From Planctomycetia bacterium (GTDB lineage: Bacteria; Planctomycetota; Planctomycetia; Pirellulales; JALHLM01), in assembly GCA_034440135.1 (NCBI GenBank), contig JAWXBP010000008.1, forward strand, positions 1-43,658: DNA of 43,658 nucleotides. Direction: 5' to 3'. The translations under genes were made by a program, and so were the position numbers. This document shows, piece after piece, positions 2,091 through 39,111 of this stretch (positions are counted from its first letter, which is position 1; each line of letters begins with the position of its first letter). The notes beneath the pieces are model-generated. The model was not told the DNA's origin and made no database searches. It worked only from the letters and a program-made list of their open reading frames with translations.

Positions 2091-2210
2091 CGGCTAAGGC
2101 GCCTCGGCCGGGCTTGGGTCGCGGTTGTCCGGTTTTGCCTGGGAATGATATGTTGACCGGATTCCCGCGGTTGCGGAGTGCGGGATTCTCCTCCTGGGCG
2201 GCACAGCGAT

Positions 2211-20937: not shown

Positions 20938-20979
20938 GGCAAAGTGGCGCCGAATCACGTATCAGCAACTAGCGATTTG

Positions 20980-22467
20980 TTATTTCGCTTCGCCCGTGGC
21001 CTCGTTGACCGAATCCGTTTCGCCGGCCTGGGGACGAATCATTTCGAAATATCGTCGAATCGTTTGTCGATGGCCGAGCGGGATCGGCTCGGAGTCGAGC
21101 ACCGACTCGCTAAGTTGTTCGTACTGCTTGGCCTTCTCACGGTACTCGCGAATCGCTTCCTGCTGCTGCTCGGGCGAAGTCATCGTTTCGACGTCCACGT
21201 CGCCTTCACCGGATTCCTGGCCCGTGAGGTTCATCTGCGGGCTGGTCTTAAGTTGAGCCGTCTTGTCACCGAGTTCGTTTCCGCTGGCGCCGAGGCCCCA
21301 GTTCTTGCCGCCCTTCTTGTTGCTCATCGCGGCGTTCTTGCATTCGGATTCACATTCGCCTTTGCATTCCGAGAGGCATTGGCACTGCTTCTGAAGCAGG
21401 TCGGAGAGTTTCTTCCGCCGACCTTGCTTCTTGCATTCGCCGGCGAGTCCCTGCGCGCCGTCTTTGAACTTGGACTTATCCCCTTGGCTCAGGCCCTGGC
21501 TCATCTGACCAATCGCTTCCTTGAGCCGCTTCTGCTGGCCCTCGCTGGAATTCTGTTGGGCTTGCTCAAGTTTTTCGGTAACGGCACGCTCCGTTTGACG
21601 ATCGAGCTTGGGCAATTCGAGCTTCGCGAGCTCTTCCGCGGCTTTGTCCATTTCCCCTTGAGACATGGCTTCGCCCGCGGATTGGAACGGCTCCGCCAGC
21701 GAGAGGGCCTCGCCCAGCGATTGCAGTTCGGCGGCGACGTTCGGATCGTTCAGTTGCGTCTGCTGTTGTTGGAGCGCCGCTTCCATTTCGGAAAGTTTCG
21801 CCAGCGCTTCTTTCGGATCGAGTCCCGGCTGTTTCAGTTCCTCGATCTTGGCCGCCAACTCCTTCAAGAGCTTTTCAATTTCCGGATCGGCCTGCTCTTT
21901 GTTGAATTCTTTGAGATCCTCCAGGCTGTTCTCAACGCGGGCCGCCTGCAACGCTACGGTTTTATTGGCGATTGGCGCGGCGACGACTTGAACGTCCGGT
22001 ACGACAAAAAACGCGATCACGAGGGCAGCCACCGAGAAGCTGAGGCCCCAATACCACGGGCGGGGCGCCAGGATCGGCGCGACGGCGGCCGGATCGATTT
22101 TGGCGACATGATCTTCGGCGTCGGCCAACTGCAACGCGTGAACCGGCGACGTCGCGCCGGACTTTGACATCAAATTCAGCGCCGTGGCGACACGGTCCTT
22201 CAAACTACAGGAGCGATCAATCGCGACGGCTGCTGCGCGCAACGGACGCGGCCGGGCAACCGCGAACAGCGCGCCGGCCGCTGGGCCAGCAGCGAGGAGC
22301 GTGCCAACCATGCTCCATTGGAGCGGGAAAGTCGAAATCGCCGCGGCCAGTCCATAAACGACGCCCGCGGCGCCGCCGGCGAGAAGTCCCCACGAGAGGC
22401 AGAGCCAGAGCCACTGCCGCTGTTGACGGGCACGGACCGCAGCCACACGTTCACGAATGCCTGGCAT
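20980..22467 (-). CDS. Membrane-anchored coiled-coil protein with a cysteine ladder
   Basis: This 495-aa protein has three predicted membrane segments near residues 20-43, 51-71 and 138-162. They are followed by a long charged helical region (SLEDLKEFNKEQADPEIEKL, EEAKKL-type heptads) typical of coiled coils. Between residues 345 and 376 there are six cysteines: C345, C362, C364, C368, C372 and C376. The last four are spaced every fourth residue, on one face of a helix. The tail is Gln/Glu-rich. It broadly resembles DUF4175-like proteins of MoxR loci, but I cannot assign the family firmly. It follows the giant TPR gene by 116 bases on the same strand. Confidence 0.85.
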   Translation of the reverse strand: MPGIRERVAAVRARQQRQWLWLCLSWGLLAGGAAGVVYGLAAAISTFPLQWSMVGTLLAAGPAAGALFAVARPRPLRAAAVAIDRSCSLKDRVATALNLMSKSGATSPVHALQLADAEDHVAKIDPAAVAPILAPRPWYWGLSFSVAALVIAFFVVPDVQVVAAPIANKTVALQAARVENSLEDLKEFNKEQADPEIEKLLKELAAKIEELKQPGLDPKEALAKLSEMEAALQQQQTQLNDPNVAAELQSLGEALSLAEPFQSAGEAMSQGEMDKAAEELAKLELPKLDRQTERAVTEKLEQAQQNSSEGQQKRLKEAIGQMSQGLSQGDKSKFKDGAQGLAGECKKQGRRKKLSDLLQKQCQCLSECKGECESECKNAAMSNKKGGKNWGLGASGNELGDKTAQLKTSPQMNLTGQESGEGDVDVETMTSPEQQQEAIREYREKAKQYEQLSESVLDSEPIPLGHRQTIRRYFEMIRPQAGETDSVNEATGEAK

Positions 22468-22583: not shown

Positions 22584-25500
22584 CTACGGTTTCGGCGTCT
22601 CGATAGCCGTTGCTGCACGCGTAGCTGGGCGAACCAGGGTCACTTTGCCGGCCACGACGTCGACCGCCCCCACCGCGTCGGACGAGACGTTCTCCAGCTT
22701 AAACTCCGCGACCGGGGCGGCGCCGACGACAAACGTTTCCAAGATGCGGAAGTCCTCAGAATCCTGCATCGCGAACAGACAGTGCAACAGGGTTCCCTGT
22801 CGGACTAAGCGCAGCCGACCGGACTCGTAGTGTCCGTTCGAGTTGCGGCTGTCTTGCGTCATGGCGCCGTTGACTTGTTTGTGCGCGAAAGTGGTGCGCA
22901 ATTGCTCCTGGCCGGCGCCATCCAAGTAGACCCCGACTTCCGCCCACTGGTCCGGGACGTCGAAGACGACCTTGAATGACATCCCGTTTCCCCAGCCCTC
23001 GCCGACCTTGCCCAGCACGAGTTGGGAAAAATCGAACGTGATGTCGAAGTCACCGGACGTCGGTTGTTTGAAGATCAGGCCCGGCCAACCCTCGTAGTTC
23101 GCGGCGCCATGCAGCTCGAGCCGGGCGCCCTCGGGCGTGGTCGTGATGCGCTCGGCCGGCCCCATCGGAAAGACACCCACCGCGGCCAACTCGCCCAGCG
23201 GCTTCGTGAGATTCAGTTCGAGCGTTTCGCCTTTCAACTCGGCGAGGGGCAACGCGCCGGACGGCCCGTAAGCGAGTTCCTGGTCCGCCAACGCCGGCGA
23301 TTGTTTCGGCCAGTCGCCGCGATAGATCAGCTTGCGGACGCGAGACTTATCCTGATCCGCATAACGGAACAGGCCGAAGAACCGCTCGTTCGGCGTTTCC
23401 TTTAATTCGTACTTCGCCACCTCCGCGCCGTTCACGCTGAGCGTGGCGAGGTCCCCTTCGACCTGCAGGCGGAACTGGTTCCAGTCGTTTTCTTTGAGGG
23501 CCACCGAAGCGGCGGACGCTTCCAGCGGCGACTCGTTCACCGGCGAGAGCCCGGTCGTTTCCCACTCCGCGTCCGTCAGGTGGTGCAGCTTCACGCCGTC
23601 CGGACGGACCAGGAAGGCCACGCGCCCGATGGCCGGGTGGACGATGCATTCGCCGGGAGTGAAATAGGACTCGAACTCAATCACGCCGTCCTCCAGCAGC
23701 GGCCGCTGGTACATCAACAGACTTTCGCGCGGTAGGACGCCGCGCGCTTCGTTCAGGACGCCGACGATTTCATCGCCGCTCTTGCGCCACGCTGCCTCAT
23801 CGGTTTCCGCGCTGAGGGAAAACGCCTCGTGGAACATGTCCGCTCGCCACCCTTGCCAGCGTTCGATCGCGATCAAATCAATGGCCTCGGGGATTTCCGG
23901 CTCGCCGACAATGCGCAAGTTATGCACGGTAGTTCGCAGGCCGGGCGAGAACGCTCGCAACACGACCCACGGATCGGCCGGCGCGGCCAGCGTTTCTTCG
24001 TGGATAAGCACGTCGTTGATGTACGTGCTGATCTTGTGTTTGTCGACGGCAATGCGGCACTGCGCCAGCCAACCGGATTGCGGAATATTCAGTTCCTTGT
24101 CCACGTCGTTGAAGCCGTGCAGCACGCTGATCACGCGTTTAGCCTTGAGGTCGTACCGTGCATCGGCGGCGAGCATGCCGTAGGCCAAGATCGCCTCGCG
24201 CCAGCTATGGAGCGGGCGTTCCACCTGGATTTCGAACTTCCCGCGCAGCGGCGACTGGAAATAGAGTTGCGAGTAGTTCTCGCCGGCCACATGTTGCGCC
24301 GCGCCGCGCATCAGCCGCCAGCTCGAGGCGCGGAATCCCTTGCCGCGCAAGTCCGGCTTCCAGTACGGCACTTCGCGCCATTGCCGCGCGGCAGTACCGG
24401 TAGCGTCTTGCTCCGGTTCCGTGCCGGCAAGCATTCGTTCCGTGTCGCCGGCGAGGCCGTCGAGCTGGCGGTGCCAGTCTTCACTACCCGAGGAGGCGCC
24501 GCCTTCCCGTTCTCGCGATTGCAGCTTGATGGCGAGATCGTAGGCCGCGAGTCGGAACGCCGGCGCTTGCATCGCCCGCCAAATGACGACGTAGTCGGCC
24601 ATCCGCTCGCCGAGCGAGCTCTCCTTGGGAATCGCCTCGATCATTGCGTCGAGCTGTGCCAGCTTCGCGGGTAACCCCTGGAGATCGCCGGACTCGAGCG
24701 CCACCAGGGCCGCCATGGCGAGCTTTTCATGCTCGGCCTTTCGGCCCCGCGCCGTGACGTCGTCGACCGATTGCCGCAGTTCCGGAAGTTTGCCTAGGCG
24801 CTCGGCGAGACGGGTCAACTCGATCGCCGGGCAAATGATCGCATCGTCGATCGACGGGCGCGCCGCGATGGGTCGGCGCTCAAAGTACAGGCGGAAATTG
24901 TCGCGAGCCGGCGTGGGTAGCACCCAATCCCGCAGTCGCACATATGCTTCCGCATCCGCAAGCGACTTCGTCTCCGCCAGCAATTCGGCCGGGCGATGCA
25001 ATTGTGCGAACTCTCCGATGATGTCCTGCAGCAAGCGTTCGTCGGCCACGTTTTCCGTCGGCCGCGCCGCGAGCAAGTTCTCCGCGATTTCCGGCGTTAG
25101 CGTTTCGGGCCAGGGACCGGTCAGCGTGACGTCGCGCACTTGCGACGATTGATTGCGGCGGCGGAAGAGGCCGAACGTGCGGACAATTGAAGGCTCCAAC
25201 GGACGTTCGTAGACGACCGTGCCGTTGAGCGAGACGATCACCGTATCCCCTCGGATCGTGGTTTCGACCTGGTTCCAGTCGTTTGCTTTGAGCGGCAACT
25301 TCGTAGGTCCGCGGCGATACTCCGGTTCGACCGCCTCCTGCGCTTGTTGCAAGTCGAAAAGTGCCGCGTCCCAAGTGGGATCAGAGACCCAATGCGCGTC
25401 GACGCCGTCGGGGTGAAGCATCATTGCCAAGTGCCCGATCGTCGGAAACGCGGACGACTGCCCCGGGACGTAATGAAACTCGTAGCGAATGGTTTCGCCG

Positions 25501-28500
25501 TCCTGCAACGGACGGTGGTAGTAAATCCAACTCTGCGCATCGTCCGGCAAGTCTTGGGCCTCGCCGTGCAGAACACCATCCTTGGCCAGCCAATCGAATT
25601 CCGTGGGAATCTCATCCTGGTAATAAACGTCTGGGTCGCGATCGATTAGCGCCGCTTGTGCGATCTGGCGCTTGGGCGGCTGCTGTTCGTAATAGTTCGA
25701 GGCGTTCCAGCCATCCATCCGGTCTCCGGAGATCAGTTTCACTTCGCGCGGAATGACCGGGCTGCCTGTGATCTTGAGATTCTTGAACGCGGTCACGCGC
25801 GGACGATCGGTGTACAGCAGCAGCCAGGGACTGGTCGTCCCGGCAGCCTCTTCGTAGTTGACGTGATTGTTCACCACGTACTGCATCACGCCGTCCTGCA
25901 CGCGGATCTCGACATGGTTGAAACCGTCCAGATTGCGTGCGAGCGGTCCCTCGAAGTGGATCGTGTCGTGATTGCCGACGGACCAGACGGACGAATTCGA
26001 ACCCGCCTGCAGCGCTTCGACGATGATGCCGCCGTAACCGGCATCCGATTCCTTCCAGCCGGATTTGTAACAATCCACCGAGAACGTAAAGTCGCCGGCG
26101 AGCGGATAGCGGAACGCCAGGATGTCTTTGCCGGAACCGCACAAATGCGTGAGCTGCCCTTCGTGCGCGACCCACCAGGGTTGAATCAGCGTCTGCGGAT
26201 GGTTCAGGGTGGAAGCCGGACGCCAATGTTCGAGCGTCTGATCGCCTGGTTGGATCGTCGTGCCGGTATCCTGCGCGGTCCGCTCGGCGAAGTCGTATTC
26301 GATATGCTCCAACAGGTGATGCAGATAGCGCTCACGGATGGCCTTGGTGAGCTCCATGCGACGCGGGCCGTAGACGGGAGCAAACTGGGGGGACTGCATA
26401 CACGCCCGGTACAGCAGATAATCCGCCCAGAGTTGCTCCGCCGGTTTGTCGTCCTGCTTCGCGACTTCGCGAATCGTCTCCTGGATCGCCGGCTCGGCGA
26501 CCGCAATCTCGCCAAGTCGGATCAGCGTCATCAGCCAGAGCGTGTTCGCGTTGGCCAGTTTTTGTTCGCGGGCCTGCGCGGCCTGATCACGCACCTCGGT
26601 CAGCTTCCCTACTTCGTGTGCCGCGTTAAGCAACTCGTCGAAATTGGAGATCAGTTCCCCGCCATGGTATTTCGCCTGTTGCGCAGCGGGCGAAAGAAAC
26701 ACCTTCGGCACATCGACCGGGCGTACCCATTCCGCGGTGAGGCGAACGGTCTGGCGCCCTGCCTGGGGCAGCGTCCACTTGCGCCACGCCTCGTAGCGTT
26801 CCTCCGGCGCGAGCTTGTTCAGATCGCGGCACACCACGGCCAGCGGCAAGGTCACGTTGGGGCGGGAGTGTTCTGGATGGTTGTAGTCCATCACCCGCCC
26901 GATGTAATCGAGCGCGATCTCGGTCAACCCGCTCTCGGCGGCCGCCTGCGCGATGCTGGCGTAGTCGTTCCACTGGATGTATTGGCCGTAGTCGCCGTCG
27001 TATTGCGAGTATTGCGTCTGCCTGCCGAGCAGGTATTGCTCGTAGAAGGCTTTCACTTCCTCAGGCTTGCTGGCGAAATGCTTGTTCACACGGACTGCCA
27101 AGTCACCCAGTGGGGACAAACCGTCGCCATTCCCGGCGTCTTGGGTTTGGCCCTGCACGGCTCGCTTCAAGATCGCGAAGGCCGCGTCCTTTAAGGCCTC
27201 GCGCTCCGAGGCGGGAATCGCCGCATGGCAGGCTAATTGCAGTTGTTGCGGCAGCGGGCCCTGGCTGAGCGCTTGGTCCAATTCCAGCAGCTGCAGATGC
27301 GCGTCGTCCAGTTTGTCACGGGCCAAAGCAATTTGAATCTGCAAGACGAGCGCCGGCACGAGCATTGCGGCGTTCGCCTTCCGCGCCTCGACGCGGCCGT
27401 GCAGATCGTCGAGTCGATCCGCCCGTTTAGCCCATTGCACCAGCGTTGCGGCAAGGCTCTTCGACTCGGCGTCCTGCAGTTTGGACGAATCGGCGAACAA
27501 CAGGATCTCGGTCGCGCGCGCCGCTGGCAGCACGATCGGGTGCAGCAATTCGTAGACTTCCAGCGGCGGATAGGCGTCGCCGGTCCATTTGTCGAGCACG
27601 CGCTTCAGCATCTCCGCGACTTCCACTGCGTCGCCGCTCGCTTCCTCCGCCGCCATGCCATAGGGGGAACTCCGGATGATGCGACGGCGGGCGCCAACTT
27701 GAGCGACGGGGTCTGCTGCGGGATCCGGCACCGGCAGACCGCCGAGCATCGCAGCGCGGACCGCCTTGCGGGAAAGCTCCGGCAGGCCGTTTTCCGCGGA
27801 AACCATGGCAATCTCCATCGCCACTTGGAATTGCGAATTGGTCAGCGGTGGAACGGCATCCGCGGCGACTGCTTCCTCGACTCCCGTGGGCGGCGCGTCC
27901 TGATAGAGCAACGACACGAGCGCCACGGCGCCCATGCCGGCCGAGTTCCAGCGAGACATCGGGCGTTTCGGCGCGCGCGCCGCCGGCCGGACGCGCTGTG
28001 GCAGCGCATGGGGGGCCGACTCTTCTGTCTGCGCTTTGCGCTGGGGGCGTACCGTGACCAGTTCTAATAACTCGGACCATTTCTGCTCGGCCTGTGCGCG
28101 GTTCCCTTGGGCGAGCGAACGCTGCCCCCAGTCGTAGAGAATCGCCACCAGGTATTTTCTATCCACCTGGCGCCGCGCGGCATCCAGCGAGCGCGCGGCG
28201 AGGCGCTCGCCGATTTCCGCATACTCTGGCGTGGTCAGGCACTCCCGGGCGACTAGCCACAATGGCACGGACAACAGCGCTTCGCGCCGCTGCCGGGAAT
28301 TCGGCCGGCGTCCTTCGGGCACTTCCACGAGCGGCTGCCCGGCCACCAGCACATCCAGTTCCCGCAGTGCTTCGCCTGCCGCGCCGCTCTTCGTTCCTTG
28401 CTCGAACGCCGCGAGCGTGATGCCGATTGAAACGTCCGTGGGATGCTGGGCACGCAGTTCGCGCAGGCGATCGCCAATGCTCGTCTTCAGTTTTTCCTGC

Positions 28501-31500
28501 TGCGCGATCGATTGCAGCAACGTCGTGAGCGGGCTGGCCATGGATTGATCGCGCAATCCTGCCACATCTGGGACCGACACCATGAGATCGAGCGCCCCAC
28601 GGTCGGAGGCCATTTTCTCGTTGACGGTTAGCAATTGCGCCATCGCCTCGCTGGCGTTCGATTCATCGAGCGATGCGAAGGCCTTGCTGAGGCCGTTCTT
28701 GACTTGCGACTGAAAGTAGTTTTCGCCTCGACCGTTCCACTGCGCGGCGGCAGTCAAAGCGGCAGGATCGTCGCTCACGCCCTGGTAAATCTTCACCGCC
28801 TCGACCGGGAAGCCCAATTCCAGCATCTTGTCGCCGGCCCACACGGAGTTCTCCACGCGCTGATAAGAAGAATACTGCGCGTCGTAGCGACTGAAGTTCT
28901 GCCCCGCCAACTGCTTGACCATCAGGGCGCGGGCGTCGTCCTGGCGGCCCAAATCGACGTAGAGCTTCAACAGCCGCGCCACGGGAGAATACTGAATTTG
29001 CTGCATGGACTGTTGTTCCGTCGCCGCTCGCTCCAGCAATCGCAGGGCCAACGGGCGCGTGTCCTGAAAGGCGTCCAACTCCTGCCCGAGCAACCAGCAG
29101 GCGGCGGGTGGCATGTCCTTCACGAGTTCCTCGTCGCTCAGGAGTTTCTCCAACTTCGCTTTGGCCGTTTCCGCCTGGCCCTCCTTGATATCCATCAAGG
29201 CCAGCAGAGCCTGGCCGCCGTACCAGTTAGGAGACTCGCCGAGCGCAGCCTCAATCGACTTGCGCATGTCCTGGACATGATCGGTGCCTTGGATGCCTTC
29301 CAGCAACTGCTGGAACGCGCCATTCGCCTGGCCGTTGCCGCTGTAGGAAGTGATCTCGCCAATGCCGAACCAGGGGGCCGAGGCCACTTCTTCTTTCGTC
29401 GGCAAGATGCCGCGTTTGCCCAGCTGGTAGATGCGCGGATGCTTCCACAACTGCGGATTGTGGATCTGCGTGATCAGCTGGCCGCGATAGCTTGGCAGAT
29501 CCTGATAGACGCGCTCCAGCAGATTGGCCGCGAGATCCGCGTTCTTTTCGTCCTGCATCAATTCCGAGGCGAGGTTGATGATGTAGTACGGTTGCCGGAA
29601 CGACTTGAGGTTCATCGTTTCGAACGCCTTGACCAACTCCAGCGTGCGTTGGCAACGATCGAACGTGCGGCGAATGTTGTAGAGTTCGTCCGCGATCCAT
29701 TCAGGGCGTTCCTTGAGGATTTCCAGGTATTGGTCGCAGGCCTCGGTCGCCTTGCCGGCGCGATCCAATTGTTGCGCCAGTTGATAGCGCAGCGCGACCG
29801 CCTTGGGACGGGCCGCGACGGCCTTTTCCAGCAGCTCCTGCATCTTGTCGCGGTTGTTCGACGCCTGATAAAGCTCGATCAACTGATCGTAGAGCCGCGG
29901 CGACTCGGGCGACTTGGCCAGCTGCGTTTCCAGCCGATCAATCAACGCCGGCAACGCGCCTGTTTGCGACAGCACAGAGAGCGCCTGAGTCCGCGTTCCG
30001 CTATCGGAAGTGCGGTAGCGCATGGGGTTCATCCCCGTCGTTTGCGAAGACAAGGGCGGCGACGTGCGGCGCAGGATCGTATGGGCGATCTGCTGCGCGA
30101 GCTCGGTTTTGCCCTGCCCCTGATAGAGCGACATCAGCGAGGCCAGGGATGAAGTCTGATTGCCGGCGCGGCGATGCACGCGGCCGAGAATCGCCTCGGC
30201 CATATCATGCAGCCCCAGGCGCCGCATTTGTTCCACGAGCGCCAGTTGCGCGTCGTTATCGAGCCGCAATCCGAAGAGCCGTTCGGCGGATTTCCGCGCT
30301 CGTTCCACGTCGCCCACGCGTTCAGCGAGTTGCAACGCCATTTGCTCGCGCCGCTGCACCAGTTGTTGATCGCGCGGCGTGATCGAATCGACGATCGTCA
30401 GCGCGTCGTCGAAGTCGCCGCGCAGCGAGTACAGGGACGCCAACTCCAGGCGCATCAGCGGATCGTTGGAAAGCTGATCGCTGGCCGCGCGGAGTTGCTC
30501 GAGGGCGTCGTCCTGCTCCTCCATCCACCACAGCATGTAGCCGAGCATCAGTTGCTCGTACAGCTTGGCTTGCGGATCCGCCTGGGCGACACGCTGCCGC
30601 AATCGATCCGACAAATCGCTGAGCACATCGTTGCGTTGGAAGACCTCATACGCCTCGCGGAGGATCATCAGCGCGGATTGTTCGACGTAAAGGTTGGTGG
30701 GCGGATACGGAACCTCCGCGTAAAAGCTTTCTTTGCCGTACTTGAGTTGCCATTGATTGGAGGAATTCTGCGAGACGGTCGGCGTGCGCGAATTGGACTT
30801 CCGTTGCGCGATCCGCTGTTGCCCTTCCGCCACGGCCAGATCGAGCGCGCCGTCCAGGATGCCCAAGATTTTCGCGTGTTCTTCCTCGGGCCCCAGTTGC
30901 CCCATCCATTGCACGATCAGATTCGTCGCGCGACCGAGAACCTGCGGACCGGCACTAGCGCCACCCCGTCCGCCGCGCGCCGGGGCGACCGTGGAGCCCT
31001 GAGCGATCTCCGCTCGCGCCGCTGCGATCCATTTTTGATACACGTCCGGCAGCCGCTCGTATTGCTCCTGGGACTGGAGCAATTGCATGGTCCCGGCCAA
31101 CGCGCCGCCGTTCGCGCTCTTGGCAACGCGTTCTTCCATCATCGCATTGGCTTGATCCTCGCGGCCAGCCAACTTCAGTTCCTCCATGACGATGCCGAGG
31201 TAACCGCTCGCCATGGAGTTGCCCGAAACCATCACGTAAGACCCGCCGATGTTGACGTACATCTGTCCGTTCGAGCCATACGCAATCTGGCCTCCCATCA
31301 GCGCGTTCGAAATCTCGTCCGATTCGTCATTTTTGACCAGGTGCTGATAGCAAGTCAGCATCAGCGTCAGATCTTCTTCGCTGAGCGGCGGCTTCTTTGG
31401 CGCCTCTTGTCCCGACTGGCGAACCTGCCGTGAATTGGGATCAACGGCGCGCAATCGCAGCGAGCTCAGGAAGAATCGCTCCGCTTCATCGCCGCCGGCC

Positions 31501-34500
31501 TTGGCGAGGCGCACGGAGGTCTTGTACACGGAGTCGTAGTTGTTGCGCAATTGCTCGACGTACAACCAATCGTAAATCGTTTCTTGGCTCGCATCCGCCG
31601 CGGCGGCGCGGGTCGTTAGCTCATCAATCACCGATGGTTTGGCGTCCGTCGAGGCGCTCGACTCCTCGGTCGTGGCGGCCGCCAGCGCGTCCTCCTGGTA
31701 CTTCAGCAGCCAGCCGTAGGCCGCCATCCGCGCCACGCCGTATGCCTCTGGCGTCCAAGTGCGCGGCTGCGACGCACCCGAGTAGTAGCCGCGATCCGGG
31801 TCCAATCCCACCGCCGACCGGACTTGCGATGAATTGCCCAACATCTCCAACGGCGATTGCCGCTTGGGCGCCGTCGTGCGAATGCCGCGGATATTCTCCG
31901 AGCGGGCTTTGGCCTGCGCTTGTTTCAATCGTTCTTCCGCGGCGGCCCCGAGCGCGTCATGCGCGACTTTGAGCGACAACAGTCGCTCGAACCGCGCCAG
32001 CGCCTCGTCACTCTTTTCCAGCGAGTGCCAGGCCAGGCCTTCGCGGTAGAGCAATTCCCAGTCGTCGCGTTGTTCGCTCAACAGCGGCTCGGTGATCGCC
32101 AGCACGCTTTCGTAGGCGCCTTGCGCCAACAAGGAGTCGAGGCTCTTCAGCAGTCGCTCCTTGTTTTCCTCACGGCGCGTGAGCTTGACGAAGATTTCGG
32201 TGGCCTCGTCCCGATCCCCGCGCGCCTGCAGTAGGTTCGCCAGGCGAAATTCCGTCTCATGGCCGGGCGCGATCGCCACCAGTTGCCGTTGATATTCGAC
32301 CGCCGCGTCCGGATCGGCGCTCTCCTCGCAGAGCTTGGACAGTTGCTGCAAGAGATTCGTATCGCGCGTGTCTTCGCTGAGCAGACTCTCCAGTTCCTGC
32401 CGCGCCGTGCCGTAATCGCCCGAGGTGTGATGCGCCTGGGCCAGGCAAATCGTGATTTCGCGCCGCTGCTCGTCCTCGCGGCGGTCGCGTTCGAAGCGCT
32501 CGATTAGTTTTTCGAACTGATTGCTGAGCAAGTACAACTCGGTCAGCTTCGTGGTCAGTGAGACCTTGTCCTCAATTTCCTCGGACTTTTCGAAGGCTCG
32601 CCAGTACACTTCGATCGCTTCGTCCGCGCGGAATTGTTCCGAGAGCGCCGCGCCGAGCGCCATAATCAGGTGCGGCTCCGTGGGATTGATCCGGACCGCC
32701 TTGCGGAGCGTGTCCAGCCCTTCCTCCGCGTTGCCCAGTTGAAAGCAAAGCTGTGCGTAGAACTCGTAGTTCTCCGTATTGCCAGGGGCGGAGACAATCA
32801 AATCCTTGCCCGCTTGGAGCGCCTCGTCCTTGCGGCCAAGCTGCGCCTCGAGGCGCGCCACGTTCATCAGGTAGTCGCCCCGCGAACGCCGGTCGACGTC
32901 CGCGAGTTGCCGATTCTTTTCCGCCGCTCGGGCGAAATCGCCGGATTGTTCGGCGATCCGTGCCGCGGCGCCGAGCGCCGGAATCGACTTCGCGTCCTTG
33001 GCCAGCGCTTGTTCGACCGCTTCCGCGGCGTCTGTCCAGCGTCGATCGGCTTCGTAATAGCGCGTCAGCAGATGCCAGGCGGCGGCCGTCGCTGCCGAAT
33101 CCGCGGTCACTTGGGCCGCGAGCTTCGCGGTCTCGTCATCCAGCCGATCGCCCGCTTGATAGACTTCAATCCGCTGTTGAATCACGGCGTCCTGTTCATC
33201 CGTGTTCGCGGCGAGTGATTCCGCAGCGCCGATATACGTGAGCGCCTCATCAAATCTCCCGGCGCGGGCATGCAACTCGGCGCCTTTGAGCTGCAAGCTG
33301 AAATCCTTGGCGTCCAACTGGCAGGCGTCGGCAATCTGCTCGACCGCCTGGTCGAGGTAACCGAAGCTGTTGTAAATCTCCGCCAGTCGCGCCACGTTGA
33401 CGGCGGTCCGCCGAGATCCGGCGACGATCTCCTGCCACGTCGCCAGGGCCTCGTCGGAGCGCTTGAGAATGTGGTAGTACTCGCCCAAATATTCGCGATA
33501 TTGCGGGTCCTCTGGCGCGAGTTCCACCGCCTGTTGGTAGAGGGCGATCGCCTCGTCGTTGATGTTCGCCTGGCGGAACAGGTCGGCGACTTGGGCGACT
33601 GTCGGCGCGTCCTTGGGATGGGCCTCGAGGATCATCCGCCAGATGCGCGTCGCTTCCGTCGTGCGGGCGTCCGGCGGCTGCTCCTTGTCGCGAACGACTA
33701 ACTTGCCCCATTCGCGCAGGAAGTCGACGTTGCCGGGAGCCGATTCCACGAGCAGCGCGTACTGCTTCACGGCGTCGGCGTAGCGCTGATCGTCGACAAG
33801 TTGGTCGATAAACGTTTTGCGCAGTTCGGTCCGCGTGGGGGCGAGCTTGATCGCCTTTTCCATCCAAGTGGACGCCTCCGGCACGCGCGCGGAGGAGGCC
33901 AGGAAGTTGGCCAGTCGGGCCATGCTATCCACGTCTTCCACATGCGCTGCGATCCAGCGCTCGTAGTACTTCACCAGGCCGTCCTGATCGCCGGCGCGGA
34001 GGAACACGTCTTCGATCCGTCGCCGCACGTCGCGGTGGAGCCAGCTTTCCGGATTCAAGTCCGCCAGGAGCGCTTCGAGACTCGCCACGCCCTCGTCTTT
34101 TTGGCCTTCACGGATTTTCAAGTCCGCCGCCTGAATGCGGAACATCGTGCGGCGATAATCGTCTTCTACCATGCCGGCGAGTTTTTCGAAGCGCGGCAGC
34201 GCTTGCTTATATTCCCCTTCCTCGACGAGCGTCACGGCGATCTGCTCCTGCACGCGGGGATCGTCTGGAAAGAGCGCTTCGAGCCGTTCCCAGACCTGCA
34301 TCGCCTCGGCCGAACGCTGCGCGCGTTGGTGCACGCGGCCAAGTTGCTGAAAGATCTCCAAGAGGTCGTTGCGAGGGGGCTTGCGGGTGATCGCCCGTTC
34401 GAATGCCTGGACCGCGTTCTCCGGTTCACCGACCTGCAGCAACGATTGTCCCAAGTAATACGAGGCCAGGGCGTCCTCGGCGCGCAATGCTTCGGCGCTG

Positions 34501-34868
34501 CGGAACGCATCCGCGGCGTTGGCGTCTTCGCCGCGTTGGGATTCGAAGAGTCCGAGCAGCATCCAGCCCGCGGAGTCGTTCGGCGCGGCCTGGACCCGCT
34601 CGCGGAGCTTAGCAAGAAATGCATCCAGCGTGCCGAACTCGACATGATGACCATAGACGCGATCTAGCGCGGTACCGCGGCGCGGCGTTTTCTCGAGTAC
34701 CGTCAGAAAACGCTGGGCCACGGCGATTTGCTGCGCCTCCTCCTCAGAGGGTTCGGCAGCAGCCGGTTCCTGGGAAATCGCCATGCGAACCGAAATGGAC
34801 GGAGCCGCCAGGGCGAAAGCCAGGCCGAACAACGCCGCAAGAAAACCACGCCATTCGATATGCGCCAT
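22584..34868 (-). CDS. Giant exported TPR protein (4094 aa) with repeated C-terminal concanavalin/DUF1583-like modules
   Basis: One uninterrupted 12.3-kb frame encodes it. Residues 1-35 are a signal peptide or anchor (FLAALFGLAFALAAPSIS). Residues about 60-2850 are almost entirely TPR-like helix pairs (ASYYLGQSLLQVGEPENAVQ, ALYQQAVELAPEDPQYREYL and many more). Interruptions are a Gly-rich patch near 1200 (YGSNGQMYVNIGGSYVM), RGGRGGASAG near 1300 and a basic Pro/Arg stretch near 2290. From about 2875 there are beta-rich modules. A pair (2875-3050, 3050-3255) is repeated after a helical linker (3500-3670, 3673-3855), and a related domain ends the protein (3890-4094). GGAGG nine bases before the ATG supports the start. 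The function is unknown; a scaffold outside the cytoplasm is inferred. Confidence 0.93.
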   Translation of the reverse strand: MAHIEWRGFLAALFGLAFALAAPSISVRMAISQEPAAAEPSEEEAQQIAVAQRFLTVLEKTPRRGTALDRVYGHHVEFGTLDAFLAKLRERVQAAPNDSAGWMLLGLFESQRGEDANAADAFRSAEALRAEDALASYYLGQSLLQVGEPENAVQAFERAITRKPPRNDLLEIFQQLGRVHQRAQRSAEAMQVWERLEALFPDDPRVQEQIAVTLVEEGEYKQALPRFEKLAGMVEDDYRRTMFRIQAADLKIREGQKDEGVASLEALLADLNPESWLHRDVRRRIEDVFLRAGDQDGLVKYYERWIAAHVEDVDSMARLANFLASSARVPEASTWMEKAIKLAPTRTELRKTFIDQLVDDQRYADAVKQYALLVESAPGNVDFLREWGKLVVRDKEQPPDARTTEATRIWRMILEAHPKDAPTVAQVADLFRQANINDEAIALYQQAVELAPEDPQYREYLGEYYHILKRSDEALATWQEIVAGSRRTAVNVARLAEIYNSFGYLDQAVEQIADACQLDAKDFSLQLKGAELHARAGRFDEALTYIGAAESLAANTDEQDAVIQQRIEVYQAGDRLDDETAKLAAQVTADSAATAAAWHLLTRYYEADRRWTDAAEAVEQALAKDAKSIPALGAAARIAEQSGDFARAAEKNRQLADVDRRSRGDYLMNVARLEAQLGRKDEALQAGKDLIVSAPGNTENYEFYAQLCFQLGNAEEGLDTLRKAVRINPTEPHLIMALGAALSEQFRADEAIEVYWRAFEKSEEIEDKVSLTTKLTELYLLSNQFEKLIERFERDRREDEQRREITICLAQAHHTSGDYGTARQELESLLSEDTRDTNLLQQLSKLCEESADPDAAVEYQRQLVAIAPGHETEFRLANLLQARGDRDEATEIFVKLTRREENKERLLKSLDSLLAQGAYESVLAITEPLLSEQRDDWELLYREGLAWHSLEKSDEALARFERLLSLKVAHDALGAAAEERLKQAQAKARSENIRGIRTTAPKRQSPLEMLGNSSQVRSAVGLDPDRGYYSGASQPRTWTPEAYGVARMAAYGWLLKYQEDALAAATTEESSASTDAKPSVIDELTTRAAAADASQETIYDWLYVEQLRNNYDSVYKTSVRLAKAGGDEAERFFLSSLRLRAVDPNSRQVRQSGQEAPKKPPLSEEDLTLMLTCYQHLVKNDESDEISNALMGGQIAYGSNGQMYVNIGGSYVMVSGNSMASGYLGIVMEELKLAGREDQANAMMEERVAKSANGGALAGTMQLLQSQEQYERLPDVYQKWIAAARAEIAQGSTVAPARGGRGGASAGPQVLGRATNLIVQWMGQLGPEEEHAKILGILDGALDLAVAEGQQRIAQRKSNSRTPTVSQNSSNQWQLKYGKESFYAEVPYPPTNLYVEQSALMILREAYEVFQRNDVLSDLSDRLRQRVAQADPQAKLYEQLMLGYMLWWMEEQDDALEQLRAASDQLSNDPLMRLELASLYSLRGDFDDALTIVDSITPRDQQLVQRREQMALQLAERVGDVERARKSAERLFGLRLDNDAQLALVEQMRRLGLHDMAEAILGRVHRRAGNQTSSLASLMSLYQGQGKTELAQQIAHTILRRTSPPLSSQTTGMNPMRYRTSDSGTRTQALSVLSQTGALPALIDRLETQLAKSPESPRLYDQLIELYQASNNRDKMQELLEKAVAARPKAVALRYQLAQQLDRAGKATEACDQYLEILKERPEWIADELYNIRRTFDRCQRTLELVKAFETMNLKSFRQPYYIINLASELMQDEKNADLAANLLERVYQDLPSYRGQLITQIHNPQLWKHPRIYQLGKRGILPTKEEVASAPWFGIGEITSYSGNGQANGAFQQLLEGIQGTDHVQDMRKSIEAALGESPNWYGGQALLALMDIKEGQAETAKAKLEKLLSDEELVKDMPPAACWLLGQELDAFQDTRPLALRLLERAATEQQSMQQIQYSPVARLLKLYVDLGRQDDARALMVKQLAGQNFSRYDAQYSSYQRVENSVWAGDKMLELGFPVEAVKIYQGVSDDPAALTAAAQWNGRGENYFQSQVKNGLSKAFASLDESNASEAMAQLLTVNEKMASDRGALDLMVSVPDVAGLRDQSMASPLTTLLQSIAQQEKLKTSIGDRLRELRAQHPTDVSIGITLAAFEQGTKSGAAGEALRELDVLVAGQPLVEVPEGRRPNSRQRREALLSVPLWLVARECLTTPEYAEIGERLAARSLDAARRQVDRKYLVAILYDWGQRSLAQGNRAQAEQKWSELLELVTVRPQRKAQTEESAPHALPQRVRPAARAPKRPMSRWNSAGMGAVALVSLLYQDAPPTGVEEAVAADAVPPLTNSQFQVAMEIAMVSAENGLPELSRKAVRAAMLGGLPVPDPAADPVAQVGARRRIIRSSPYGMAAEEASGDAVEVAEMLKRVLDKWTGDAYPPLEVYELLHPIVLPAARATEILLFADSSKLQDAESKSLAATLVQWAKRADRLDDLHGRVEARKANAAMLVPALVLQIQIALARDKLDDAHLQLLELDQALSQGPLPQQLQLACHAAIPASEREALKDAAFAILKRAVQGQTQDAGNGDGLSPLGDLAVRVNKHFASKPEEVKAFYEQYLLGRQTQYSQYDGDYGQYIQWNDYASIAQAAAESGLTEIALDYIGRVMDYNHPEHSRPNVTLPLAVVCRDLNKLAPEERYEAWRKWTLPQAGRQTVRLTAEWVRPVDVPKVFLSPAAQQAKYHGGELISNFDELLNAAHEVGKLTEVRDQAAQAREQKLANANTLWLMTLIRLGEIAVAEPAIQETIREVAKQDDKPAEQLWADYLLYRACMQSPQFAPVYGPRRMELTKAIRERYLHHLLEHIEYDFAERTAQDTGTTIQPGDQTLEHWRPASTLNHPQTLIQPWWVAHEGQLTHLCGSGKDILAFRYPLAGDFTFSVDCYKSGWKESDAGYGGIIVEALQAGSNSSVWSVGNHDTIHFEGPLARNLDGFNHVEIRVQDGVMQYVVNNHVNYEEAAGTTSPWLLLYTDRPRVTAFKNLKITGSPVIPREVKLISGDRMDGWNASNYYEQQPPKRQIAQAALIDRDPDVYYQDEIPTEFDWLAKDGVLHGEAQDLPDDAQSWIYYHRPLQDGETIRYEFHYVPGQSSAFPTIGHLAMMLHPDGVDAHWVSDPTWDAALFDLQQAQEAVEPEYRRGPTKLPLKANDWNQVETTIRGDTVIVSLNGTVVYERPLEPSIVRTFGLFRRRNQSSQVRDVTLTGPWPETLTPEIAENLLAARPTENVADERLLQDIIGEFAQLHRPAELLAETKSLADAEAYVRLRDWVLPTPARDNFRLYFERRPIAARPSIDDAIICPAIELTRLAERLGKLPELRQSVDDVTARGRKAEHEKLAMAALVALESGDLQGLPAKLAQLDAMIEAIPKESSLGERMADYVVIWRAMQAPAFRLAAYDLAIKLQSREREGGASSGSEDWHRQLDGLAGDTERMLAGTEPEQDATGTAARQWREVPYWKPDLRGKGFRASSWRLMRGAAQHVAGENYSQLYFQSPLRGKFEIQVERPLHSWREAILAYGMLAADARYDLKAKRVISVLHGFNDVDKELNIPQSGWLAQCRIAVDKHKISTYINDVLIHEETLAAPADPWVVLRAFSPGLRTTVHNLRIVGEPEIPEAIDLIAIERWQGWRADMFHEAFSLSAETDEAAWRKSGDEIVGVLNEARGVLPRESLLMYQRPLLEDGVIEFESYFTPGECIVHPAIGRVAFLVRPDGVKLHHLTDAEWETTGLSPVNESPLEASAASVALKENDWNQFRLQVEGDLATLSVNGAEVAKYELKETPNERFFGLFRYADQDKSRVRKLIYRGDWPKQSPALADQELAYGPSGALPLAELKGETLELNLTKPLGELAAVGVFPMGPAERITTTPEGARLELHGAANYEGWPGLIFKQPTSGDFDITFDFSQLVLGKVGEGWGNGMSFKVVFDVPDQWAEVGVYLDGAGQEQLRTTFAHKQVNGAMTQDSRNSNGHYESGRLRLVRQGTLLHCLFAMQDSEDFRILETFVVGAAPVAEFKLENVSSDAVGAVDVVAGKVTLVRPATRAATAIETPKP

Positions 34869-35094
34869 AACCAGGGTCCTCCACGGAGGGATAGACGTAA
34901 TCCGGCCCCATTTGGTTTGCAGGAGCGGATCGGCAAATCGATTTTAGTTCCGGGCTCGTTCTGGAAATACTAACCAAATTACGATAGCAAAAGCTAGACA
35001 CCGCGTATTCTTTGCCCCACAATCCGCCTTGAACGACCCACACGCGACTGAATCGCGTAGGAGTAGCGAACCAACGTACTCGAGCGAGGCGCCG
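34869..35094. promoter_or_regulatory. Divergent control region between the giant TPR gene and the MoxR operon
   Basis: This 226-bp gap must hold promoters for both directions. An AT-richer core (about 34930-35015) is a likely promoter area, but no clear -35/-10 pair can be assigned. ATTTGGTT at 34910-34917 and AACCAAAT at 34972-34979 form an 8-base inverted repeat with a 54-base spacer, which could be paired half-sites or chance. Confidence 0.5.
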
Positions 35095-36105
35095 ATGAGT
35101 GTCAGCGAGGAACTGAAGCAGCAACTCGATCAGTTTCGCCACGATTTCGCCCGACTGCGCGCGGAGATTGGCAAAGTGATCGTCGGCCAGCGTGAAATCC
35201 TGGACGACACTTTGGTCGCGCTCATCGCCGGCGGACACGTACTCTTGGAAGGCGTGCCGGGGCTGGGGAAAACCCTGACCGTCCGCACGCTGGCCGATGC
35301 GCTCGATTTGCAGTTTCATCGCATCCAGTTCACGCCCGACCTGATGCCGGCGGACTTGATCGGCACCAATATCGTGCTGGAAACGCCCGAAGGGCGCAAG
35401 GTGTTTGAGTTCCAGCAGGGTCCGCTATTCACGAATGTGCTCTTGGCGGATGAAATTAATCGGGCGACGCCGAAAACGCAGTCCGCCTTGCTGGAATCGA
35501 TGCAAGAGCACTCGGTCACCGTCGCGGGGATCACGCACAAGCTGAGTGAACCGTTCTTTGTGATGGCCACGCAAAATCCATTGGAGATGGAAGGAACCTA
35601 TCCGCTTCCAGAAGCGCAGTTAGACCGGTTTTTCTGCAAACTGCTCGTGAAGTACCCCAGCGCCGCGGACCTGGAATCGATTCTCGATCGCACCACGGAG
35701 TCGGAAAACCCCCGCGCCGAGGCGGTCCTCGCCGGCGCACGCATTTTGGAGATGGCCAAGCTCTCTAGGCAAATCCCGATTGCCGACGAAGTGCGCCGCT
35801 ACGGCATCGCGCTGGTGCTGGCCACGCATCCCGAACACGCCCTCGCCACCGGCGCCACGCGGCAATACGTCCGGTATGGCGCCAGCCCGCGTGGCTTGCA
35901 GTCGATGATCCTGGGCGCCAAGATCCGCGCCATTTTGGACAACCGCTATCACGTCGCCCGCGAAGACCTCCGCACGATGGCCTACCCCGTGCTGCGTCAT
36001 CGGTTGATCCTCAACTTCGAAGGCCAGGCCGAAGGAGTAGGCACGGACGATGTCATCCGTCAGATCATCGAAAAACTGTCCGAAGACGCGCTCGCGGCGG
36101 CGTGA
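35095..36105 (+). CDS. MoxR-family AAA+ ATPase
   Basis: This is a 336-aa cytoplasmic ATPase of the MoxR family, chaperone-like enzymes usually encoded beside DUF58 and VWA proteins. Walker A is GVPGLGKT (residues 53-60), and Walker B is VLLADEINRA with D119/E120. Sensor 1 is FFVMATQNPLEMEGTYPLPEAQLDRF, a MoxR hallmark. The C-terminal lid follows (YVRYGASPRGLQ). A TTG at 35029 would extend the frame by 22 residues of low-complexity sequence. The ATG at 35095, with GCGAGG before it, fits family length. It heads a four-gene plus-strand series. Confidence 0.96.
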   Translation: MSVSEELKQQLDQFRHDFARLRAEIGKVIVGQREILDDTLVALIAGGHVLLEGVPGLGKTLTVRTLADALDLQFHRIQFTPDLMPADLIGTNIVLETPEGRKVFEFQQGPLFTNVLLADEINRATPKTQSALLESMQEHSVTVAGITHKLSEPFFVMATQNPLEMEGTYPLPEAQLDRFFCKLLVKYPSAADLESILDRTTESENPRAEAVLAGARILEMAKLSRQIPIADEVRRYGIALVLATHPEHALATGATRQYVRYGASPRGLQSMILGAKIRAILDNRYHVAREDLRTMAYPVLRHRLILNFEGQAEGVGTDDVIRQIIEKLSEDALAAA

Positions 36106-36200: not shown

Positions 36201-37076
36201 ATGTTATTTCCGAACGATTTTCTCACGCGACTCGAATACCTTTCGATTATTTCGAAGCGGGTGTTTCGTGGTTCGTTGTTGGCGCAGCGGCGCACGATGC
36301 AGATGGGATCGGGGATCGAGTTTTCGGACCATCGGGAGTACGCCGCGGGGGACGACTTTCGCTACCTGGATTGGAACGTCTACGCACGGCACGGCGACTT
36401 GCTCCTCAAGCGATTTCAGGAAGAGCAGGATCTCCACGTATACATCCTGCTCGATTGCTCCCGCAGCATGGGTTATGGCGATCCGCCGAAGTTCACCCTC
36501 GCGCGACATTTGACGGCGGCGCTCGCGTACATCGCCTTAGCGGATCTGGATCGCGTGGCGGTGCTGGCGTTCGCGGACGGCATTCTCAAGGAGTTTCCGC
36601 TGACCCGGGGCAAAGCGCGAATACTGCCACTGATGAAATTCCTGGAAGGGCTCGAAGTCGCCGGCGAAGATACGAACCTCGTCCGAGCCGCGCAGGGCCT
36701 GCTGCAGCGAGGGCGTCGTACTGGGCTGGTCGTCGTGATCAGCGATCTCTTTGATGAGCATGGCTTTCAGAACGGGCTGGACCAGATGCGGTTCCGTCGC
36801 TTCGACGGTCACGTGCTGCAGCTTTACGACCCTCGCGAGGCCGATCCCATGATCCTGGGGGACGTGGAGCTGGTGGACGTGGAGACCAACTCGCTGCGAA
36901 AAGTGACCGTCACTGAGAAAAACGTCCGCGTCTACAAGCAGCTCTTTGCGGAACATCAGTCTGCGGTGCGAGACTATTGTCGCGGGTACGGACTCGGTTG
37001 CACGCAGACGCTGTCGACAGTGCGTTTCGATGACTTGATCTTGAAGATGATGCGCGAGGCAGGGCAGTTGGGTTGA
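36201..37076 (+). CDS. DUF58 domain protein (VWA-like)
   Basis: This 291-aa protein is the usual second gene of MoxR loci. The DUF58 signature is clear: GIEFSDHREYAAGDDFRYLD followed by WNVYAR, then the metal-ion site LLDCSRSMG with D85-x-S-x-S. VVVISDLFDE supplies the later acidic residues of the von Willebrand-like fold. It has no membrane segment and is shorter than many DUF58 proteins, which often have two N-terminal helices. It likely works with the MoxR ATPase at the inner face of the membrane. A 95-bp gap separates it from moxR and 43 bp from the next gene. Confidence 0.95.
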   Translation: MLFPNDFLTRLEYLSIISKRVFRGSLLAQRRTMQMGSGIEFSDHREYAAGDDFRYLDWNVYARHGDLLLKRFQEEQDLHVYILLDCSRSMGYGDPPKFTLARHLTAALAYIALADLDRVAVLAFADGILKEFPLTRGKARILPLMKFLEGLEVAGEDTNLVRAAQGLLQRGRRTGLVVVISDLFDEHGFQNGLDQMRFRRFDGHVLQLYDPREADPMILGDVELVDVETNSLRKVTVTEKNVRVYKQLFAEHQSAVRDYCRGYGLGCTQTLSTVRFDDLILKMMREAGQLG

Positions 37077-37119: not shown

Positions 37120-39111
37120 ATGTCATTCGCCAATCCTATCGCCTGGTTTCTCGCGCTGGCCGCCGGGCCGATCATCGTCTTTTACATTCTGAAACTGCGT
37201 CTGCGCCGGCTGCCGGTCTCGACGAACCTATTTTGGAAGCAGATTTACGACGAGAAGCCGCCACGCTCGATCTGGCAATACTTGCGTCATCTGCTTTCGC
37301 TACTCGCGCAACTGTTGCTCGTGGCGTTCCTGGCGGCTGCCGTCGCGGATCCCTTCTTCGCCTGGCAGCTGCTGGAAGCGCGCCGGATCGTCGTCGTGGT
37401 GGATAACTCCGCCAGCATGCGCGCAAGTGACATCGCACCCACCCGACTCCAAGCGGCCATCGACTCCGCCAAGGCGCTCGTGGAAGGTCTGCGCTTCCAG
37501 GACGAGATGGCGATCGTGTTGGCTGGACCGCGCCCCGAAGTGGTTGTTGGCATGAGCGGTCACGTGCCAACGCTCAAACGAGCGCTCGAGGAAATCGCAC
37601 CTTCGGATAACCCGACCGACGTAGAGTCGGCGATTGAACTGGGCCGGCAGCTGATCGGCGAGCATCCCCACGGCGAAGTCGTGGTCGTCACGGATGGCTG
37701 TTGGGACGCGATGGTCAAACCGGAGGGCGGCCAGGAAGTGAAGCTGGAAACCAAACTCGCTCCGGTGACTTACCGCGTGTTCGCTACCGAGGCCGCCAAC
37801 GTCGGCATCACGCAGTTTCAGGTGCGACGGAGCCTGATCGATCCGCTCGGCTACGAAGTGCTCATCGCCATGCGCAACGCGGGTCCGTCGGAAGTAAAGT
37901 GCCGCGTGGAAATGGAGTTGGCTGGCCTGCCAGTCGATATTCTCCCGTTGACGCTCAAGCCGGAAGAACACTGGAGCCGCTCGCTGGAAAAATCGTCGCT
38001 GGAAGGTGGACGGCTCGTAGCGAAGCTGACGCAGGTCGCGGCGACAGCCAGCACGAGCGGCGACAAGCCCACGGAGTCGAAGGCCGCGCTCAATTTGTTG
38101 CCGACGGACGACACCGCCTGGGCGGTGCTCCCGGAACGCGAAATTCAAAAGGTGCTGTTGATCACGGAGGGGAATCTGTTCCTGCAGAAGGTGTTCGAGG
38201 CAAACCCACTGGTGCGCGTCGAAACGCGGAAAGATTTTCCAGATCAATGGCCCGCGGATACGCTCGTGGTGCTGCATCGCCAGGTGCTGCCGCTGCTGCC
38301 CGCTGGAAATCTGCTCGTCGTCGACCCAGCCGGGAGTTGCGACGCCTGGGACCTGGGCGAGACGATCGAGAATCCCATCGTCACGGAGCTCGATTCCGCT
38401 TCTCGGCTCATGACCTACGTGCGCCTCGATAACGTGCTGATGCCGGAGTCGAAGCAGCTCAAGTACAAGTCGCCGCCGAAGGTGCTCGCCGGCGCGATTT
38501 CCAAGGACGCGATCTACGCGGAAGTGACGCGCGCCAACGGCAAATGCCTGGTGCTGACCGTCAATCTCGATCGTGGCGATCTCGCCTTCCGCACGGCGTT
38601 TCCAATCTTGGTGGCCAATGCATTAGGGTGGTACGCCGGCGAAACCGGCGAGCTGCGCGAATCCCTCGCCACGGGATCGACCGCGGAGGTCCAGCTTGAC
38701 ATCGCATCCCAAGGCGAGCGCTCCGCGCCGTTACTTCGCTCCCCGAGCGGCCGCGAACAGACGCTGTTTCCGCCCGCTGACGACGAGACAAAAAAGAACA
38801 CCGAGGAATCGAGAAATGAAGCGCCGCAGGCCGCGTCCAGCATCAGCGTGGGGCCATTAGACGAATGCGGCGTGTGGAATGTAGTAAAGTCGGCTTCCGA
38901 AGCGGAAACGCCGCTCATGTCGCTGGCAGTCAATCTGGCGAGCGCGCGCGAAAGTGATCTTCGTCCGCCGCGGGAAATGGCCGAACAGACCACAGCGGAG
39001 TCCGTTGTCTCGAATTGGCTCGCGCGGCCGCTTTGGTTTTACTTGTTGTTCGCCGCCTGTGCGCTGTTTCTGGCCGAGTGGTTCTTGTATCAACGTCGTG
39101 TGATCACGTAA
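37120..39111 (+). CDS. BatA-like VWA membrane protein
   Basis: This 663-aa protein begins with the BatA N-terminal region (FANPIAWFLALAAGPIIVFYILKLR, a membrane helix followed by basic residues). A second helix is near residues 60-82 (LLSLLAQLLLVAFLAAAVADPFF). The VWA domain then starts with VVVVDNSASM (D95-x-S-x-S) and includes VVVTDGCW. The following about 400 residues are a beta-rich extracytoplasmic region, and a C-terminal helix lies near 635-655 (LWFYLLFAACALFLAEWFL). The topology places the VWA domain outside the cytoplasm, as in Bat proteins. It is separated from the next gene by only 18 bases. Confidence 0.92.
   Translation: MSFANPIAWFLALAAGPIIVFYILKLRLRRLPVSTNLFWKQIYDEKPPRSIWQYLRHLLSLLAQLLLVAFLAAAVADPFFAWQLLEARRIVVVVDNSASMRASDIAPTRLQAAIDSAKALVEGLRFQDEMAIVLAGPRPEVVVGMSGHVPTLKRALEEIAPSDNPTDVESAIELGRQLIGEHPHGEVVVVTDGCWDAMVKPEGGQEVKLETKLAPVTYRVFATEAANVGITQFQVRRSLIDPLGYEVLIAMRNAGPSEVKCRVEMELAGLPVDILPLTLKPEEHWSRSLEKSSLEGGRLVAKLTQVAATASTSGDKPTESKAALNLLPTDDTAWAVLPEREIQKVLLITEGNLFLQKVFEANPLVRVETRKDFPDQWPADTLVVLHRQVLPLLPAGNLLVVDPAGSCDAWDLGETIENPIVTELDSASRLMTYVRLDNVLMPESKQLKYKSPPKVLAGAISKDAIYAEVTRANGKCLVLTVNLDRGDLAFRTAFPILVANALGWYAGETGELRESLATGSTAEVQLDIASQGERSAPLLRSPSGREQTLFPPADDETKKNTEESRNEAPQAASSISVGPLDECGVWNVVKSASEAETPLMSLAVNLASARESDLRPPREMAEQTTAESVVSNWLARPLWFYLLFAACALFLAEWFLYQRRVIT

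Follow-up and report, generated by a model that had tools for sequence, protein, structure and literature searches.

The DNA of a Planctomycetia bacterium analysed here (GenBank assembly GCA_034440135.1, contig JAWXBP010000008.1, positions 1 to 43,658, hereafter the window of 43,658 nucleotides) raises the question of what a bacterium does with a single protein of 4094 aa, and whether the gene that encodes it is real and maintained. A first-pass annotation had claimed one intact frame for this protein at 22584-34868. The frame is borne out at exactly these positions and belongs to the minus strand, which had not been specified: it runs uninterrupted from an ATG at 34868 to a stop at 22584 (22584..34868; 457 kDa, pI 5.2), and over this interval the plus strand carries many stops. 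Besides, GC3 is uniformly coding-like along the frame (75-82%), and the longest frame in 50 shuffles of the window reached 428 codons, with a mean longest frame of 297, the giant ORF being about 14 times this mean. Against G001, the sole same-genus genome (92% identical), the overall dN/dS of the giant is 0.108, with values of 0.04-0.08 in residues 1-1,600 and of 0.14-0.19 near the C-terminus, indicating that the giant is under purifying selection, strongest in its TPR core. Shuffles and dN/dS together rule out a chance or artefactual frame. Another ORF, at 34744–35319 on the minus strand, overlaps the giant's start in a different frame, shows no significant family match and is considered spurious.

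The gene is also found, mostly intact, in relatives. Giants of about 3,200–4,550 aa with a DUF1583_N domain occur in many Planctomycetia genomes, named carriers being Rhodopirellula solitaria (a frame of 4,177 codons, stop to stop), Limnoglobus roseus (3,875), Pan216, that is Kolteria novifilia (3,808), and Laterigemmans (3,220). The TPR core was detected in 42 of 199 genomes of the class (E ≤ 1e-60) and, among 246 genomes of the phylum, class members included, in only three outside the class, weakly. The window, like most relatives, comes from a metagenome bin or a fragmented assembly. In the named collection, 38 of the 54 closed-frame loci encode at least 3,000 aa, 12 encode 2,000-3,000 aa and four are short. 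These counts run against orthologues being commonly broken, an outcome that the first-pass annotation had named as damaging to its claim, and the intact frames in most relatives lead to rejection of the giant as a pseudogene. Its argument that so long an unbroken frame implies selection is in agreement with the ratio of 0.11 towards the same-genus genome and with these mostly intact relatives.

Departures from the single-gene form do exist. In at least three genomes the giant is cleanly split into two genes: in G004 and G014 the split falls at a Pro/Arg-rich low-complexity linker (residues 2265-2342; 27843..28076, minus strand) that separates the two halves of the giant, the second ORF starting by eye at the position equivalent to this linker and each product bearing its own signal peptide, and a third such locus is L188. 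Decay was rejected as an explanation for G004 and G014, since their second halves have a signal peptide of their own. Some genomes also have TPR-only forms, about 2,250 aa long. Because both splits and TPR-only forms exist, the N-terminal half represents the core of the protein and the lectin-like end its variable part. In one close relative (L131), the giant frame is closed at 1469 codons and the remainder lies in another frame just downstream, reflecting either a frameshift or an assembly error. Some Schlesneria MAGs (L139-L152, L171) hold at least two giant or TPR-only copies, with MoxR beside only some of them.

As to the architecture of the protein, the signal sequence that had been proposed ahead of the TPRs was found: the N-terminus GFLAALFGLAFALAAPS (residues 1 to ~36; 34760..34868, minus strand) is signal-sequence-like, with a hydrophobic segment at residues 9-27 and no lipobox cysteine, and is kept in orthologues. 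Export of the giant is supported by such predicted signal peptides, including the one on each half of the split versions. The segment that follows, residues 45-960 (31989..34736, minus strand), is identified as a TPR superhelix by AlphaFold2, Foldseek and conservation. AlphaFold2, applied to residues 45-960 and 2900-4094 of the giant, predicts 53 helices for this core with a mean pLDDT of 90.4, and Foldseek matches it to the TPR superhelices of IFT139, SKI3, CTR9 and OGT. With a length of 913-925 aa in nearly all orthologues and identities of 39–66% to the window, the core is the most conserved part of the giant. Further TPR-like repeats lie within residues 1400-2040 (28749..30671, minus strand; Pfam TPR_19/TPR_20), where HHalign comparison with the core gave a strong match for ~1400-1780 (probability 98%) and a moderate one for ~1830-2040 (92%). 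The same comparison gave no TPR support for residues 961-1260 and 2621-2885 (probability below 8%, and below 4% for the latter) and a weak match for 2342-2620 (45%), so that residues 2342-2885 (26214..27845, minus strand) are described as a helical region whose TPR membership is not established. Hence, of the TPR-like helix pairs claimed by the first-pass annotation over about 2800 residues, those of residues 45-960, ~1400-1780 and ~1830-2040 stand, and the rest is helical but unproven as TPR.

One reading of such a TPR protein is that of a scaffold for polysaccharide synthesis or export, comparable to PgaA, AlgK and PrsT, in which the lectin modules would guide the polymer. Its best NCBIfam match is indeed TIGR02917, for PrsT, a TPR protein of PEP-CTERM/exopolysaccharide systems; the TPR domains of PgaA bind polymer (PMC9384988), and carbohydrate-binding-like folds are present in the giant. 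However, the PrsT match reaches only 182.7 bits for an equivalog cut-off of 312.2, the giant has no lipobox, none of the window genes was recognised as coding for a glycosyltransferase, a polymerase, a flippase or an outer-membrane secretin, and the conserved neighbour is a MoxR/VWA operon instead, which makes this reading very improbable.

The C-terminal part had been described as carbohydrate-binding-like modules, which is confirmed as regards the fold. Pfam recognises in the giant two DUF1581, two DUF1583_N, one DUF1583 and a 3keto-disac_hyd domain, with scores above the cut-offs (given in brackets) of 257.9 bits for DUF1583_N (22.9), 110.8 for DUF1581 (27) and 52.6 for DUF1583 (22.9). AlphaFold2 of residues 2900-4094 (pLDDT 85.6) predicts five beta-sandwiches and a helical insert, arranged as a first ConA/LamG-like pair of DUF1581 and DUF1583_N (residues 2900-3260; 25091..26171, minus strand; also recognised by Foldseek), a second such pair (residues 3495-3861; 23288..24384, minus strand), absent from some orthologues as judged from missing alignment columns, and a fifth sandwich corresponding to the DUF1583 C-terminus (residues 3880-4081; 22626..23231, minus strand). 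By Foldseek these tandem sandwiches resemble neurexin LNS, laminin LG, SPRY and putative glycosyl-hydrolase folds, which, given the low TM-scores of the whole multi-domain chain, stands as a fold-class assignment and not as homology to the matched proteins. A PDB sequence search with the C-terminal profile returned weak glycosyl-hydrolase matches and otherwise nothing significant, and the sandwiches showed no identifiable catalytic residues. The ConA/LamG-like sandwich fold is often purely structural.

These modules invite the view of the giant as a surface or matrix adhesin, or an S-layer-like protein, whose TPR stalk would present lectin-like modules to surface or environmental polysaccharide, the MoxR operon being either an assembly factor for it or a merely convenient neighbour. 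Giant genes in planctomycetes are commonly regarded as coding for surface proteins (PMC5177795), LamG-like modules in tandem recall the ectodomains of adhesive proteins, the number of C-terminal modules varies as it often does in adhesins, and there are tandem arrays of short proteins built from these modules. Yet the strongest constraint acts on the TPR core and not on the lectin end, some genomes retain the TPR-only forms, no outer-membrane or cell-wall anchor was recognised in the giant, and this reading would still have to account for the close co-occurrence with the ATPase system of the inner membrane described below; an adhesin thus appears unlikely to us. The short proteins in question, of about 1,100 aa and found in planctomycetes, share the DUF1581-DUF1583_N-DUF1583 modules of the giant's C-terminus but, unlike the giant, are devoid of TPRs and are encoded outside the MoxR gene set. 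Such tandem arrays were seen at loci L104 and L106 (G114 and G207), an ECF sigma factor gene adjoining the array of G114.

Further indications on the function come from the gene context. Divergently from the giant, and starting about 160–230 bp from it, lies an operon in the order MoxR, DUF58, BatA-type VWA and second VWA, where an SSF transporter gene is also located; when the intergenic region between the divergent genes was scanned for promoters, a single weak sigma-70-like match emerged. The MoxR AAA+ ATPase (35029..36105, plus strand; likely ATG at ~35095; AAA_3, 1e-62) has intact Walker A and B motifs with the standard P-loop GLGKT, GLGKT and DE being invariant in 49 of 49 loci. It is followed by a DUF58 protein of VWA-like fold (36201..37076, plus strand; PF01882, 8e-41), whose DxSxS motif is kept in 36 of 36 and whose gene retains its place between MoxR and the VWA genes in relatives. 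The BatA-type membrane VWA protein (37120..39111, plus strand; PF07584 (BatA) and PF13519 (VWA_2)) has transmembrane segments at 6-24, 58-76 and 634-652 and a MIDAS of sequence DNSAS. Pfam, topology and co-occurrence then define a second membrane VWA protein (39130..41769, plus strand) with a GATase1-like domain and two DxSxS motifs. On the other side, 117 bp downstream of the giant, a gene for a 495-aa protein of no known Pfam or NCBIfam family (20980..22467, minus strand), with two N-terminal transmembrane segments and a coiled coil, adjoins the giant or sits behind the second VWA gene in most relatives examined and is, as judged from this conserved position, a member of the giant/MoxR gene set. 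The plus-strand ORFs at 20944 and 22164 were rejected as spurious, the conserved gene being that running from 22467 to 20980 on the minus strand.

This neighbourhood is retained across relatives. MoxR adjoins the giant in 19 of 26 comparison genomes, belonging to several families, and all four operon genes do so in 16, while HflX, RsgA, RuvB and other flanking genes are not retained beside it in these 26. In the same line, among loci of the GTDB collection with enough upstream sequence, MoxR lies divergently upstream in 38 of 61, and ten other window genes used as controls lie beside the giant in none of the 61, the two sets overlapping in genomes and being not fully independent. Seven of the 26 giants have no operon alongside (G005, G150 and G201 among them), and some genomes have extra giants or the shorter TPR-only forms without it. 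The arrangement can be divergent or, as in G176 and on contig C360 of G213, have the operon downstream and co-oriented; because it varies, the association is not merely unbroken ancestral synteny.

Co-occurrence points in the same direction. Among 199 genomes, the TPR core is present in 42, the second-VWA subfamily in 42 and both in 40 (Fisher p = 4e-37), the line around the subfamily having been set by hand at a bit score ≥800 plus one partial match (G133), and the Fisher test ignoring phylogeny. Within family f22, 18 genomes have both, none has a single one and 31 have neither, which shows repeated joint presence or absence of the giant and the second VWA protein. Since VWA relatives are widespread, with any match to the second VWA protein in 164 of the 199 genomes, and since a paralogous cluster without giant exists on contig C433, it is this specific VWA subfamily, and not MoxR operons generally, that tracks the giant. 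In addition, the protein distances of the TPR core are correlated with those of the operon proteins (r 0.86–0.90). Joint inheritance would produce such a correlation, to which species phylogeny alone would contribute. That the giant and the MoxR, DUF58, two VWA and 495-aa proteins would share one system is well supported by these genomic data, although gene neighbourhood and a low dN/dS do not show physical contact. Among open-licence papers, no publication linking DUF1583 giants with MoxR was found.

The closest known counterpart is the Bat (Bacteroides aerotolerance) operon, which comprises MoxR, DUF58, the VWA proteins BatA and BatB, the TPR proteins BatC and BatE, and BatD. The gene set described here likewise includes a MoxR AAA+ ATPase, a DUF58 protein, a BatA-type three-TM VWA protein with MIDAS, a second membrane VWA protein and an exported TPR protein, together with an extra membrane protein. 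It differs in that the TPR partner is not a small protein but one of 4,094 aa with lectin-like modules, transcribed divergently, and in that the second VWA protein combines a GATase1-like domain with an additional VWA-like DxSxS site. BatD had no Pfam match among the giant, its 495-aa neighbour and the operon genes, and no small BatC/BatE homologue was found, the giant being the cluster's only TPR protein. MoxR-vWA-beta-propeller ternary systems, whose subsystem 4 was reported in planctomycetes (PMC7159879), also share a MoxR, a VWA and a TPR-bearing third component. Unlike these, the present system has Bat-type membrane VWA proteins and the standard P-loop, and no propeller: no beta-propeller match was obtained on the operon VWA proteins, and the giant's five sandwiches are non-propeller.

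We consider that part of the Planctomycetia probably possess a Bat-like MoxR/VWA membrane system in which the giant is the TPR component outside the cytoplasm. From the cytoplasmic side, the MoxR ATPase and the DUF58 protein would act on both VWA proteins of the inner membrane, the MIDAS-bearing domains of which would face the periplasm. For the BatA-like protein this orientation is predicted because its three-TM layout and MIDAS match those of Borrelia BB0173, for which a periplasmic location of the VWA domain was demonstrated (PMC5700661). In other bacteria, TPR members of the Bat proteins have been put forward as builders of a complex in the periplasm (PMC3557215). We infer that, in the simplest model, the conserved TPR superhelix could dock on the periplasmic VWA domains, this contact being a guess, that the remainder of the giant would form a long arm of roughly 25-40 nm, by our own estimate from TPR geometry (~9 Å rise per TPR), and that the lectin-like tips might hold glycans or glycosylated envelope proteins, the ligand being likewise a guess. 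In this way, the system would link ATP-driven remodelling at the inner membrane with the assembly or maturation of material of the envelope. The scaffold or periplasmic organiser suggested by the first-pass annotation is compatible with this model but unspecific. The main clue, the conserved association with the MoxR operon and the 495-aa protein, lay outside its coordinates and went unseen.

Partly nested inside this Bat-like explanation is a maturation machine modelled on NorQ/NorD, in which the MoxR and VWA proteins would insert a metal cofactor into, or remodel, a periplasmic client complex held by the giant. MoxR/VWA pairs are known to insert cofactors and to bring complexes to maturity (PMC9976466, PMC13036017), and the MIDAS and Walker motifs are essentially invariant among relatives; on the other hand, no metalloenzyme gene is conserved in the gene set, and the VWA domains are here predicted to be periplasmic, unlike that of NorD, so that we hold this possibility to be quite unlikely. 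More tentatively, and with more doubt than trust on our side, the Bat-like system could be extended to a new planctomycete envelope machine, in which an ATP-driven MoxR/VWA complex of the inner membrane, with a TPR arm and lectin-like tips, would organise envelope glycans or glycoproteins, the 25-40 nm arm spanning the periplasm, which is enlarged in planctomycetes.

Although planctomycete giant genes have often been remarked upon, hardly any has been linked to a system. The gene described here shares with the 'giant genes' of PMC5177795 its size of more than 5 kb and its presence in a planctomycete; the latter are a size class to which no function has been assigned, whereas the present gene belongs to a specific family with a function suggested by gene context. 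Through neighbourhood and co-occurrence, this family gains five specific partners, so that its function can be tested in cultured strains. MoxR/Bat systems are themselves poorly understood, the role of Bat in aerotolerance or growth being disputed even in Leptospira (PMC3557215); they would be extended by an unusually large extracytoplasmic component, and the giant could reveal what their periplasmic side does.

Two further loci may be mentioned. The genome of the window encodes a second Bat-like cluster, without giant (L196; G000 contig C433, 1017-9476), with MoxR, BatA-VWA, a VWA/GATase1-like protein and an NHL-repeat propeller protein. Finally, the window encodes, at 2178-5954 on the plus strand, a 1258-aa protein that combines DUF7133/GSDH-like, HEAT and cytochrome c domains, as is typical of multi-domain cytochromes in planctomycetes.
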